Positions 32,610 through 36,051 of a stretch of DNA of 64,000 nucleotides are shown in pieces; the stretch's first letter is position 1; every line of letters begins with the position of its first letter. The stretch lies in the NCBI RefSeq assembly GCF_019656335.1, contig NZ_BPLZ01000002.1, positions 62,001-126,000 on the forward strand. Direction: 5' to 3'. The DNA is from Pseudomonas sp. NCCP-436. Lineage in GTDB: Bacteria > Pseudomonadota > Gammaproteobacteria > Pseudomonadales > Pseudomonadaceae. The notes below the pieces were generated by a model. It saw only the letters and a program-made list of their open reading frames with translations, ran no database searches and was not told where the DNA came from. A program made the position numbers and the translations under genes.

Positions 32610-33560
32610 TTATAGCGCGTTGCTCGGGGCAAGAGGTTCGGGATGTGGCTGCAGGTAAGCCTGTTCAGCGATGTAGCAATCCGGATGGCGGCGAAAATGG
32701 TGTTTGAGCAGTGTCAGTGGTACTGCTAGCGGCACAATGCCCTCGCGGTACTGGCCGATCAGTTGTTTCATTTCCTGCTTCTCGTCAGAGCTGAGAACGC
32801 GTTTGAGATAGCCGCTCAGATGCTGCAGCACATTGCTGTGGGTGCTGCGCGTGGCGCATTGCTTCAAGGCGCTCATTAGCTCGCGGAAATAATGCGGCGC
32901 CAGTTCGCCGAGATCATGTCGGTTCAGCTCTCCGAGCAGGCGCCCGAGCGACTTGTAGCGCACCGGATCGGTAGCCATCAGCAGGTATTTGTAGCGCGAA
33001 TGAAAGGCGATCAGTGCGCGGCGTGTCAGACCTTGTTGCAGCAGATGCTGCCACTCGGCGTACGTGTAGACGCGGGTGATGAAGTTCTCGCGCAGCACCG
33101 GGTCGTTGAGCCGGCCATCCTCCTCCACCGGCAGATCCGGATGGCGCCTGCAGAAGGCAGCAGCGTAGATGCCGCGGCCAGGTTTGCTCGGCTGTCCGCC
33201 TTCCTGGTGCACCTTGACTCGCTCCAGGCCACAGGAGGGCGACTGCTGCATGAATATGTAGCCGCTGATGCCCTGGAGCTCGACTGCCATGCGTTCGGCG
33301 TAGGTGGAGAGTGCATTGGTGACATCGCGTGAGTGATCAACGGTGCCGACGGCACGCGGTGCCAGTGGATTACCGACCAGTCGTATCGGCTCGCGCGGTA
33401 TTGGCATGCCGATACCGACTTCCGGGCAGACAGAGATGAAGTCGAAATATTCGCTCAGGTTGCTGCTGCACAGGCGTGACAGCCTGTGGCCGCCGTTGTA
33501 GCGCACCTCCGCGCCCAGCAGGCATGCACTGATGCCCAGTTTGACTTTGCTCGCTCGCAT
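32610..33560 (-). CDS. DUF523 and DUF1722 domain protein
   Basis: 316 residues. Residues 5-~160 are DUF523 (KLGISACLLGAEVRYNGGH; ISVCPEVGIGMPIPREP; FMQQSPSCGLERV, with conserved Cys). Residues ~180-300 are DUF1722/YbgA (SRYKYLLMATDPVRYKSLG; HFRRHPDCYIAEQAYLQPHP). Often adjacent to photolyase genes; biochemical role unknown. First gene of the litR-phr operon. The ATG at 33560 has a weak ribosome site, and a TGTACA operator pair lies 19-42 bp upstream. Confidence 0.88.
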   Translation of the reverse strand: MRASKVKLGISACLLGAEVRYNGGHRLSRLCSSNLSEYFDFISVCPEVGIGMPIPREPIRLVGNPLAPRAVGTVDHSRDVTNALSTYAERMAVELQGISGYIFMQQSPSCGLERVKVHQEGGQPSKPGRGIYAAAFCRRHPDLPVEEDGRLNDPVLRENFITRVYTYAEWQHLLQQGLTRRALIAFHSRYKYLLMATDPVRYKSLGRLLGELNRHDLGELAPHYFRELMSALKQCATRSTHSNVLQHLSGYLKRVLSSDEKQEMKQLIGQYREGIVPLAVPLTLLKHHFRRHPDCYIAEQAYLQPHPEPLAPSNAL

Positions 33561-33578
33561 AATTTGGTCTTACAAAGT

Positions 33579-33602
33579 TGTACATAAGATTAACTTTGTA
33601 CA
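33579..33602. promoter_or_regulatory. TGTACA-N12-TGTACA operator in the DUF523-litR-phr promoter
   Basis: TGTACA at 33579-33584 and 33597-33602, starts 18 bp apart, within a wider inverted repeat ACAAAGTT / AACTTTGT. A further TGTACA is at 33646-33651, with near-matches TGTGCA at 33627 and AGTACA at 33633. The same spacing is found at 34981-35004. Inferred binding site of the LitR-like regulator. Confidence 0.6.
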
Positions 33603-33639
33603 GTTTTTTCATCATAGGGAGCTTCTTGTGCAAGTACAA

Positions 33640-33945
33640 ATGTTATGTACAACATTTGTATCGATTTTTGCATGCGACCGTCAGTGGCCAGGCGGATGAC
33701 CCTATTGCAGAAGCGGTGGAAAATGGGGGCGTGCCAGCCCAGCAGCCAGTGCTAGCTGTCTTGCAGTTGACGCCAGTCGAGCTTGACTGAGCACTGTCTG
33801 AAGCTTGATGCCGAGGATCTTGTTGGCGTTGTCGCGGATCGGCGCGGTAGCCGGGAAGCGGCGTTCACGATTCTCCGGGCAGGCTGCCGTCCACTTCGAC
33901 AGCAGCAGCCTGCGCGGGTGTGCACGGCGTTTGCCGGATGCTACG
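33640..33945 (-). other. Gene-free interval with possible decayed coding sequence
   Basis: Lies between the FAD oxidoreductase stop and the DUF523 promoter. No intact gene. On the reverse strand fragments in different frames look protein-like (AQAAAVEVDGSLPGE near 33900; RFPATAPIRDNANKILGIKL near 33830; SVKLDWRQLQDS ending at a TAG near 33760), as if a gene of ~60-100 codons carries two frameshifts. The family is not recognised. Confidence 0.25.
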
Positions 33946-34929
33946 TCATTGCAGGTGTTCAAGCAGGCGGCGCGCGGCCTCCTGGCCGCTGAGCCAGGCA
34001 CCTTCAACACGACCGGATAGGCACCAGTCGCCACAGGCATACAGGCCTAGATCTGCGTCGGCCAGCGCGCCCCATTGGTGCGACTGCGCGGGACGAGCGT
34101 AGAGCCAGCGGTGGGCGAGTGTGAAACTCGGTGGCGGAACCGCGCAGCCAATCAGTTCAGCAAAAGCTCCATGTAGTTGCTCGATCACGGCCTCTCCGGA
34201 CAGATCCAGATGCTGCCGGCTCCAGGCACTGCTGGCGTGCAGCACCCAAGTATCAAGCTGTTTGTTGCGGCCGGGTTTGCTGTGGTTGCGGGCCAGCCAA
34301 TCGAGCGAGCTGTCCTGCACGAAGCAGCCCTCCACGCGTGTGTCCAGTGCGCTGTTGAAACCAAGTGCCACGGACCAGGTCGGTTCCATGGCTACGCTGG
34401 CAGCGGCTCCGGCCAGTTTTGGGGCTGCCGCCAGCAAGGAGGTGGCTTGCGGTGCGGGGATGGCAATGATGACCTGACTGTAGGGGCCGTAGCTGTTGCC
34501 GTCCGCATCCAGTAGGTTCCAGTAGCGGTCGCCGCGGAACACTTCGGTGATGCGGCAGTTGAAACGGGCCGGCAGAGTGTCGAGCATGGCGTGGGTGATG
34601 GCGCTCATGTGCGGGATGCCTACCCAGCGTACCTGTTCGTCTGGTGATGTGCTCAGTTGTCCGTCCTGGGCGTTGTACAGGCTCGGCTGCCACTGCGTGA
34701 CCCAGCCGCGAGTCTGCCATTGCTGCACGACTTCGACGAAGCGTCGGTCGCGTGCGGTGAAGTATTGCGCACCGAGATCCAGGCTGCCGGCTTCACTGCG
34801 TTTGCTTGCCATGCGCCCGCCGCTACCGCGACTCTTGTCGAACAGTTCAATGCTCTGGCCTGCCGCATGCAGTACCTGGGCTGCCGAAAGTCCTGCGATG
34901 CCGGTGCCAATGACGGCGATGGGGGGCAT
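33946..34929 (-). CDS. Renalase-like FAD-dependent oxidoreductase
   Basis: 327 residues. N-terminal dinucleotide-binding fold [16 protein letters not shown], then [13 protein letters not shown] (the RGxGGR flavin motif), [12 protein letters not shown], and a C-terminal [19 protein letters not shown] contact. These features match the amine-oxidase/renalase group often linked to phr. The ATG at 34929 follows GAGGTAATC; an in-frame ATG at 34950 is less likely. The TGTACA pair upstream suggests co-regulation with phr. Confidence 0.9.
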
Positions 34930-34980
34930 GATTACCTCGTCAGCGCACAATGCCGTACAGGCTAAATTTTGGACAAAAGC

Positions 34981-35004
34981 TGTACAAGAATGTTTTCATG
35001 TACA
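34981..35004. promoter_or_regulatory. TGTACA-N12-TGTACA operator between the FAD oxidoreductase and TIGR01777 genes
   Basis: TGTACA at 34981-34986 and 34999-35004; the outer bases extend the pair to CTGTACA ... TGTACAG on the reverse strand. Spacing identical to the pair at 33579. It lies 52 bp upstream of the FAD oxidoreductase ATG and 145 bp from the divergent epimerase gene, so it could act on both. Confidence 0.6.
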
Positions 35005-35148
35005 GCTGTAGCCGAAAGTTGCGTTCCCTTGTTCTAGGTTTAGGACAAAGGTGGCAATCGATAAAGGCGTGTGGCGTTATGTACCAGCCGAGTGACTTCG
35101 GCGCCGTTGAGGTGAATATCCCTTGCATTGCCAAGCGAGGACGATGTC

Positions 35149-36051
35149 ATGCACATCCTGCTGACCGGCGGTACTGGGCTGATCGGTCGGGCGCTTTGTG
35201 TCCATTGGATCGAGCGGGGCCATCGGCTGACTGTCTGGAGTCGTGAGCCAGGCAAAGTTGCGCGCCTCTGTGGTGTCAGTGTACGCGGTATTGCCCGGCT
35301 CGACGAACTGGCTGAGGATTCTGTGGATGCGGTGATCAACCTGGCTGGCGCGCCGATTGCCGACAGGCCGTGGAGCAGCAAGCGCAAGGGGCTGCTGTGG
35401 TCCAGCCGTATCGGTTTGACCGAACAGCTGCTGAGCTGGTTGCAGGCACGAACGCAACCTCCGGCAGTGCTGATATCCGGCTCAGCGGTGGGCTGGTATG
35501 GCAATGGTGGTGAGAGGGAACTGAGCGAAAGCACAGCGCCGGTAACCGACGATTTCGCTGCTCGGCTTTGTGGTGCCTGGGAGGAGACTGCACTACGCGC
35601 CGAAGCACTGGGCGTCCGTGTGGTGCGGTTGCGCACAGGGCTGGTACTGAGTTCCGACGGCGGCATGCTCAAGCGCCTGCTGCTGCCGTTCAGGCTGGGG
35701 TTGGGCGGTCGACTCGGCAATGGCCGGCAGTGGATGTCGTGGATTCACATTGCCGATCAAATCGCCCTGATCGATTTTCTCTTGCAGCAGAGTGATGCTC
35801 GCGGTCCTTATAATGCCTGCGCGCCCACGCCGGTGCGCAATGCCGAATTCAGTAAGGCGCTTGGGCAGGTACTGAGTCGGCCCACACTGTTGCCGTCGCC
35901 GGGGTTTGTTCTGCGTGCCGCGCTCGGGGAAATGTCCGAGTTGTTGCTGGGCGGTCAGCGTGCCGTGCCGACTCGCTTGCTGGAGGCAGGCTTCAGCTTT
36001 CGTTTTACCCATCTGGATGTGGCTCTGGTGGATTTGCTGAGCCATCACTGA
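35149..36051 (+). CDS. TIGR01777 family NAD(P)-dependent epimerase/oxidoreductase
   Basis: 300 residues. Extended SDR with HILLTGGTGLIGRALC nucleotide motif, NLAGAPIADRPWSSKRK (the TIGR01777 signature), GSAVGWYGNGG with the active Tyr, and a C-terminal DUF1731-like tail. Substrate unknown. GAGGA precedes the ATG at 35149. 12 bp before hemH, so the two form an operon; both may fall under the TGTACA operator. Confidence 0.9.
   Translation: MHILLTGGTGLIGRALCVHWIERGHRLTVWSREPGKVARLCGVSVRGIARLDELAEDSVDAVINLAGAPIADRPWSSKRKGLLWSSRIGLTEQLLSWLQARTQPPAVLISGSAVGWYGNGGERELSESTAPVTDDFAARLCGAWEETALRAEALGVRVVRLRTGLVLSSDGGMLKRLLLPFRLGLGGRLGNGRQWMSWIHIADQIALIDFLLQQSDARGPYNACAPTPVRNAEFSKALGQVLSRPTLLPSPGFVLRAALGEMSELLLGGQRAVPTRLLEAGFSFRFTHLDVALVDLLSHH

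Follow-up and report, generated by a model that had tools for sequence, protein, structure and literature searches.

Paired TGTACA sites in Pseudomonas sp. NCCP-436 as probable class II LitR operators in the RudS-LitR-photolyase and renalase promoters

Two pairs of the hexamer TGTACA with the same internal spacing lie beside a photolyase gene cluster of Pseudomonas sp. NCCP-436, which raises the question of which protein binds them and which genes are controlled from them. The window analysed here is a stretch of 64,000 nucleotides (assembly GCF_019656335.1, contig NZ_BPLZ01000002.1, positions 62,001 to 126,000 of the forward strand), and coordinates refer to it unless another contig or a locus is named. 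A sequence-only reading had proposed that the LitR-like MerR protein encoded in the cluster binds both pairs, and that a DUF523 gene, the photolyase gene phr, an FAD oxidoreductase gene and possibly hemH form one light-responsive regulon. We consider it very probable that both pairs serve as operators for a class II LitR repressor that controls the operon of rudS (the DUF523 gene), litR1 and phr and, in addition, the FAD oxidoreductase gene, a predicted renalase gene, but not hemH. This explanation is based on the motif, its spacing and positions, its conservation and the presence of LitR1, and we infer from the sequence that it is the LitR1 of this organism that binds both pairs.

All five TGTACA copies on which the proposal was built are present, at 33579, 33597, 33646, 34981 and 34999, and the pairs 33579/33597 and 34981/34999 share an identical 18-bp register, both reading TGTACA-N12-TGTACA. 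The window as a whole carries 14 copies of the hexamer against 5.77 +/- 2.22 expected, a count that none of 100 shuffles reached. When the whole genome (3.68 Mb in 43 contigs, completeness rating 99.99%) was scanned for the exact pair, two copies were found, both at the places already named, within a 1.4-kb stretch of the window; the backwards-read control pattern had no match. From the TGTACA density of the window, approximately 0.03 exact pairs per genome are expected by chance. In the genus comparison, which covered 99 genomes with the present one counted in, the exact pair was present in 91, and the hand-summed total was 219 forward exact matches against 4 matches of the reversed control. 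By comparison, a looser consensus with two mismatches allowed gave 158 matches in the present genome against 120 for its control; it therefore loses specificity and, without comparison, only exact or near-exact forms are informative.

That the two pairs arose by chance could be argued from relatives in which exact pairs fall inside reading frames. This was the case for 9 of the 22 sites in 20 further loci, which were hand-picked from the listed part of the genus matches and so give no rate; the test for reading frames was mechanical, and its nine include the sites in the photolyase promoter of L135 and before the kinase gene of L138. With two pairs seen where about 0.03 are expected, and both places kept in relatives, the probability of a chance origin is negligible.

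The operator motif itself is not new, as it has been published for the class II LitR repressors PplR1 and PmlR2; what is added here is the probable reach of the regulon to renalase and the sensor partner that was not found. In P. mendocina NBRC 14162, a DNase I footprint of PmlR2 on promoter P6650 gave a broad protected region with two TGTACA-N12-TGTACA sites, one over the -35 box and the other between the transcription start and the first codon of a promoter reading TTGACT-N16-TATGAT, and PmlR2 binding was lost when both TGTACA of Site 2 were replaced (PMC9758184). The same paper quotes the P. putida PplR1 consensus as T(G/A)TACA-N12-TGTA(C/T)A, which both window pairs match exactly, and describes how the repressor PmlR2 is inhibited by a short LOV protein (PmSB-LOV) activated by blue light, the light being sensed by a separate protein. 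Operator sequence and spacing in the window are identical to those of this system. Also alike are the layout of the promoter, where the -35 box carries one site and the stretch from transcription start to first codon carries the other, and an operon in which P. mendocina has a class II LitR, phrB and ufaM; the window differs in that the footprinted second paralogue and the short LOV were not found in the present genome and in that the operon is shortened. In P. putida KT2440, with its PplR1 to PplR3 regulon, LitR1 likewise lies beside phrB and rudS and the PplR1 consensus covers both window pairs, but KT2440 has three LitR genes and two for short LOV proteins, against a single LitR and no short LOV found in the present genome (as quoted in PMC9758184, PMC11417400 and PMC11014904).

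At the front of rudS, the first pair (Site 2, 33579-33602, minus strand) is perfect and lies 18 bp upstream of the RudS ATG, after the predicted transcription start. This is the same place as that of the footprinted Site 2 of P6650, and the position is kept in relatives. Upstream of it, TGTACA at 33646-33651 and TGCACA at 33627-33632 are separated by 13 bp and form a degenerate Site 1 (33627-33651, minus strand) that overlaps the -35 box. The third TGTACA had been thought to add to the first pair, which can now be explained, as it is the upstream half of this Site 1. The predicted sigma-70-type promoter of rudS-litR1-phr (33611-33639, minus strand), derived from alignment with relatives and with P6650, consists of a -35 box TTGTAC (33634-33639), a 17-bp spacer and a -10 box TATGAT (33611-33616). 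In this alignment, with the transcription start inferred, the sites lie over the -35 box or between the start and the first codon, as in the published promoter. A generic promoter consensus scan of 33560-35160 found no promoter-like site, and both promoters described here are taken solely from alignment. An inverted repeat, ACAAATGTT-N6-AACATTTGT, was also seen at 33636-33659, centred on the third TGTACA and over the RudS -35 box.

The comparison of this promoter covered 93 loci with a usable RudS start, the present one included (L124-L126, with partial RudS, and L127, without RudS, were dropped). A match at a gap of 12 with at most one mismatch was found in 91 of them, and any other gap from 6 to 19 gave such a match in at most 7. 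The common arrangement in relatives is that of two N12 pairs, Site 1 and Site 2, 49-51 bp apart. Site 2 was exact in 69 loci and had one mismatch in 17, and Site 1 was less conserved (exact in 32, one mismatch in 29). In 70 of the 93 loci the -35 box TTGACT occupied one fixed column within Site 1, and the -10 box at the commonest position read TATGAT in 53 and TATGCT in 15. The N13 form of Site 1 is similarly readable in L026 (G008) and L028 (G060). Another regulator with TGTACA-like half-sites could in principle bind such pairs, and the link with LitR would then be a coincidence of position; TGTACA is a short palindrome, and seven genomes carry LitR1 without any exact pair. The 12-bp gap, the footprint obtained for PmlR2 and the placement in the same operon in relatives speak against this, and we regard this explanation as highly unlikely. 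That rudS, litR1 and phr belong to the LitR regulon is well supported.

The second pair (34981-35004, minus strand) is also perfect and lies 51 bp upstream of the ATG of the renalase gene. It stands in the intergenic region shared with a divergent gene of the TIGR01777 family, 145 bp upstream of the TIGR01777 start, with hemH following, and this gene order is widely kept. These points favour an operator that also controls TIGR01777-hemH, so that heme synthesis would be part of the regulon, and the sequence-only reading had included hemH on a tentative basis. To compare the region, we used 90 loci, with starts extrapolated from alignments and with loci dropped that did not have both TIGR01777 and renalase within 600 bp. 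Between the two genes, 88 of the 90 have a gap-12 match with two mismatches or fewer (at most one mismatch in 19, exact in 2, namely the present genome and G008), and other spacings reached this level in at most 10. The distance from the site to the renalase start was 49-57 bp in 87 of the 90 loci, whereas that to the TIGR01777 start spanned 112-233 bp. Among 19 aligned sequences, none was seen to have a promoter block for TIGR01777 that overlaps the operator, and the available part of a co-culture study names only PP_0738-PP_0742 as rising in P. putida (PMC11014904). As the site keeps a fixed distance to renalase and not to TIGR01777, renalase is the likely target and hemH is unsupported; we consider control of hemH from this operator improbable and have rejected it as a member of the regulon. 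The claim that TGTACA pairs are common to the promoters of LitR-linked genes is supported for RudS-LitR-phr and for the FAD oxidoreductase, where the pairs are kept in relatives, but not for hemH.

In a profile of 87 of these loci (L029 dropped for a long gap, L030 and L119 for three mismatches), the operator closes with TTGTA and a conserved TAGtCT-like box comes next; together they make a plausible -35/-10 pair for renalase. In the window the promoter predicted from this profile (34959-34987, minus strand) has its -35 box TTGTAC (34982-34987) within the operator, a 17-bp spacer and the -10 box TAGCCT (34959-34964). The five P. putida genes PP_0738-PP_0742 rise together in co-culture with a cyanobacterium (PMC11014904), and PP_0742 should, by synteny, be the renalase gene. 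Inclusion of renalase in the regulon is fairly supported. In the open-licence literature no link between renalase and LitR, or between renalase and light, was found for bacteria, which is not proof of absence, and the word renalase does not occur in PMC9758184. The label P6655 in that paper was considered as a possible renalase promoter and dropped, because the legend of Figure 5 has P6650 and the label is probably a slip. Between TIGR01777 and renalase, relatives repeatedly carry an additional TGTACA at a gap of 21 (33 pairs in the 90 loci) beside a conserved -10-like box; at this place the present window has CGTACA at 34954.

If a class II LitR does act through both pairs, LitR1 bound to them would block RNA polymerase at both promoters. 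At rudS-litR1-phr it would act from the operator just past the predicted transcription start and from the second, degenerate one on the -35 box, and at renalase from the single operator over the predicted -35 box. LitR1 would thereby repress its own gene too, and its release would let photolyase, the predicted tRNA 4-thiouridine desulfidase and renalase rise together, with hemH presumably unaffected. In a relative, PmlR2 has been shown to bind and repress, and a short LOV protein activated by blue light has been shown to inhibit it. If the explanation is true, shared control of renalase with photolyase and the tRNA desulfidase would make the regulon a programme that deals with damage to several types of molecule.

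Whether light is the signal depends first on LitR1 itself. In CarH, the histidine that serves as the lower ligand and the residues of the Wx9EH motif matter for B12. Like CarH and the other B12-dependent class I LitR proteins, LitR1 has a MerR-type domain for DNA binding and a four-helix region related to theirs: its N-terminal MerR helix-turn-helix matches PF13411 (E 2.8e-17) and PF00376 (E 6.1e-12), and B12-binding_2 (PF02607) scores 21.6 bits, just below the 23-bit cut-off. No match to the B12-binding (Rossmann) domain was found in LitR1 up to E 0.001. The position of the lower-ligand histidine is Met in the present LitR1 and Leu, Met, Phe, Gln, Thr or Pro in 95 aligned rows, never His, and neither the E nor the H of Wx9EH is kept. 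Judged by these residues, LitR1 cannot be a CarH-type B12 sensor, and B12 sensing of this kind was rejected. CarH, with whose operators the sequence-only reading had found the pairs compatible, is the wrong model for this protein, with the B12 ligand gone and the published class II system sensing light through a separate short LOV protein.

The known separate sensor was not found. The best short LOV match in the present genome has an E value of 1.1e-10, the weakest of the 99 genomes, 88 of which have E <= 5e-58. The DNA pattern for NCRFLQ, with one mismatch allowed, occurs at three places in the genome, none of them in a LOV-like frame; this pattern is too narrow, as the short LOV proteins inspected carry DCRFLQ, and the short LOV calls rest on the protein search. 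A MerR-type repressor freed by a separate blue-light receptor is also known from E. coli (BluR/BluF, named in PMC9758184), but no BLUF domain was found in the present genome, nor was a PHY domain of the phytochrome type. A second LitR was not found in it either, the match to the LitR2 query being LitR1 itself. One further MerR-like match, a 337-residue frame on contig C1 at 184336, was rejected as a LitR since it aligns at 36% over residues 23-92 (the helix-turn-helix only), and we take it to be a TipA-type MerR protein. Both a short LOV and LitR2 are present in each of the five nearest relatives by LitR1 and RudS (G008, G012, G063, G064 and G078). Light-responsiveness in the present organism is therefore uncertain.

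The present genome is not alone in this. A short LOV is missing in 11 of the 99 genomes, and ten of these keep LitR1, with no LitR2 shown. In each of the ten, a pair of exact or consensus type lies close to where rudS begins (in G020 consensus-type only; in G027 rudS is partial). The eleventh, G093, has no LitR1, LitR2 or full-length RudS and no exact pair, but as seven LitR1-bearing genomes also lack the exact pair, this absence alone is weak evidence. Conversely, G015 and G089 are without LitR1 and keep LitR2, a short LOV and the exact RudS operator, so that either regulator can explain the operator. Another NCRFLQ-type LOV motif was found in 8 of the 11 genomes and a PHY domain in 8, and several of them may have other light receptors; the present genome has neither. 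On the photolyase tree, the label of no short LOV (10 of 95 rows) takes seven changes, at least five of them forced by well-supported branches, in a tree made by a quick method and with the direction of change inferred.

Two explanations of this pattern have to be weighed. The operators could be relics in the present genome, with LitR1 a light-blind repressor or on its way out after the loss of the short LOV, the second LitR and part of the operon. Besides the missing short LOV and LitR2, the degenerate Site 1 is in line with this, as is the region downstream of phr, where the block that separates phr from the DUF2878 gene is reduced to a remnant. In this remnant (29889-30209, minus strand) only C-terminal sequence of a CMAS-type methyltransferase gene survives, which by position corresponds to ufaM of the published operon; it has 48% identity to residues 306-424 of the frame in the relative locus L025, and a search of the window found no match to the four frames that L025 has between phr and this methyltransferase gene. 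The DUF2878 gene (29369-29893, minus strand) lies at +3.7 kb downstream of RudS here and farther downstream in at most 76 of 96 relative loci, usually at about +7.8 kb, and was not matched in every relative. On the other side, LitR1 is intact and stays under purifying selection, neither operator has a mismatch, and LitR1 without a short LOV is retained in nine other genomes. Compared with four of the five nearest relatives, LitR1 has a nonsynonymous difference (pN) of 0.10-0.12 and a synonymous difference (pS) of 0.44-0.51. The LitR/RudS pN ratio is 1.42 here, and LOV-bearing genomes average 1.52 with a range of 0.71-2.34 (n = 82; genomes without usable LitR or RudS were dropped); the values of the ten LOV-less genomes, 0.84 to 2.01, lie within this range. 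Decay to relics is thus rather unlikely.

A different possibility, which we put forward tentatively and hold to be possible rather than probable, is that in the present genome and in several other pseudomonad lineages LitR1 has lost its tie to the short LOV and to the second LitR but goes on controlling a repair regulon for DNA, tRNA and nicotinamide (photolyase, RudS and renalase) from intact operators, sensing light by another route or responding to another signal, such as photo-oxidative damage. The absence of the known sensor while LitR1 and its operators remain is, to us, the most interesting result, and the repeated absence of the short LOV with LitR1 and operators retained poses a testable question, that of the input to LitR1 without its known partner.

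Several observations weigh against control of both promoters by a light-responsive class II LitR. The exact pair is absent from 8 of the 99 genomes, seven of which carry LitR1 (G002, G003, G010, G020, G042, G060 and G080), and G010 and G080 do not have even a consensus-type pair in the locus stretch. The compared loci are kin, so that the counts given above are not independent. In the present genome Site 1 is degenerate, with its N13 spacing and one mismatch, and in relatives the renalase site has mostly a weak form (TATACC...TTGTACA). The published footprint is that of PmlR2, a LitR2-type paralogue not found in the present genome, and for the LitR1 type the support is the quoted PplR1 consensus (PMC9758184). 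In that paper, a gel shift has the PmlR2/LOV complex still on DNA in the light, which contradicts surface plasmon resonance; on whether PmlR2 leaves DNA in the light, its authors favour the latter. The rise of the P. putida genes in co-culture took place at probably lower light per cell (PMC11014904), and it therefore speaks for co-regulation and not for light. None of the searched kinds of sensor (short LOV, BLUF, phytochrome) was found in the present genome, and the shortening of the operon downstream of phr leaves room for a decaying light response.

The genes of the cluster are ordered as follows. Transcribed from the minus strand, rudS (32610-33560) is the first gene of its operon and encodes a 2-thiouracil desulfurase domain (PF04463) with DUF1722 (PF08349); its product is a predicted tRNA 4-thiouridine desulfidase, following the function of such domain fusions in PMC11417400. 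It is followed by litR1 (31658-32605, minus strand), assigned to class II in the PplR1/PmlR1 position by its MerR helix-turn-helix, the weak B12-binding_2 match and synteny, and by phr (30234-31670, minus strand), a deoxyribodipyrimidine photo-lyase by the equivalog NF007955, above its cut-off. LitR is thus linked to both rudS and phr in the order RudS-LitR-phr. The FAD oxidoreductase gene (33946-34929, minus strand) can be identified as a renalase gene from its match to the renalase PDB 4zcc (E 2.1e-163, residues 3-327). On the plus strand lie the divergent TIGR01777-family short-chain dehydrogenase/reductase gene (35149-36051) and the ferrochelatase gene hemH (36064-37086). Renalase repairs abnormal reduced nicotinamide cofactors. 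Most of the 96 relative loci share the order hemH-TIGR01777/renalase-RudS-LitR-phr; exceptions are L121-L123, without a match to hemH, TIGR01777 or renalase, L105 and L117, without LitR1, L127, without RudS, and L124-L126, in which RudS is partial. Beyond the cluster, a 151-residue frame at 28259-28714 matches COX1 in its N-terminal part only and 92 residues of its relative in L025, and is a truncated cytochrome oxidase subunit I (ccoN-like) gene.

Exact pairs at other genes were also observed among the hand-picked loci of relatives, several of them ahead of sensor genes or of genes from the same programme. In L128 (at 2502) and L130 (at 2481) the pair lies about 20 bp before a SnoaL-like gene beside a short LOV gene, the SnoaL-like gene being assigned by Pfam in L128 and by likeness in L130. 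Others precede a chalcone-isomerase-like gene (L132), a DUF3833 gene (L136) and the gene of a CHASE3 chemoreceptor (L131), and in L133 (2443), L134 (2503) and L138 (2505) roughly 110 bp separate the pair from the earliest possible start of a CHASE3-GAF histidine kinase gene downstream. Upstream of PAS-type frames, exact pairs were seen in L139 (3268), where the frame has PAS and MCP signalling domains, and in L145 (2524). In L135, from genome G079, which is without LitR1 or full-length RudS, two exact sites (2528 and 2578) lie 50 bp apart directly before a photolyase gene. In the present genome, a degenerate TGAACA-N12-TGTATA site with one mismatch to the consensus was considered as a third operator on contig C9 at 20677 (L006:1501-1524), and the gene downstream of it reads by eye as a malic enzyme gene.

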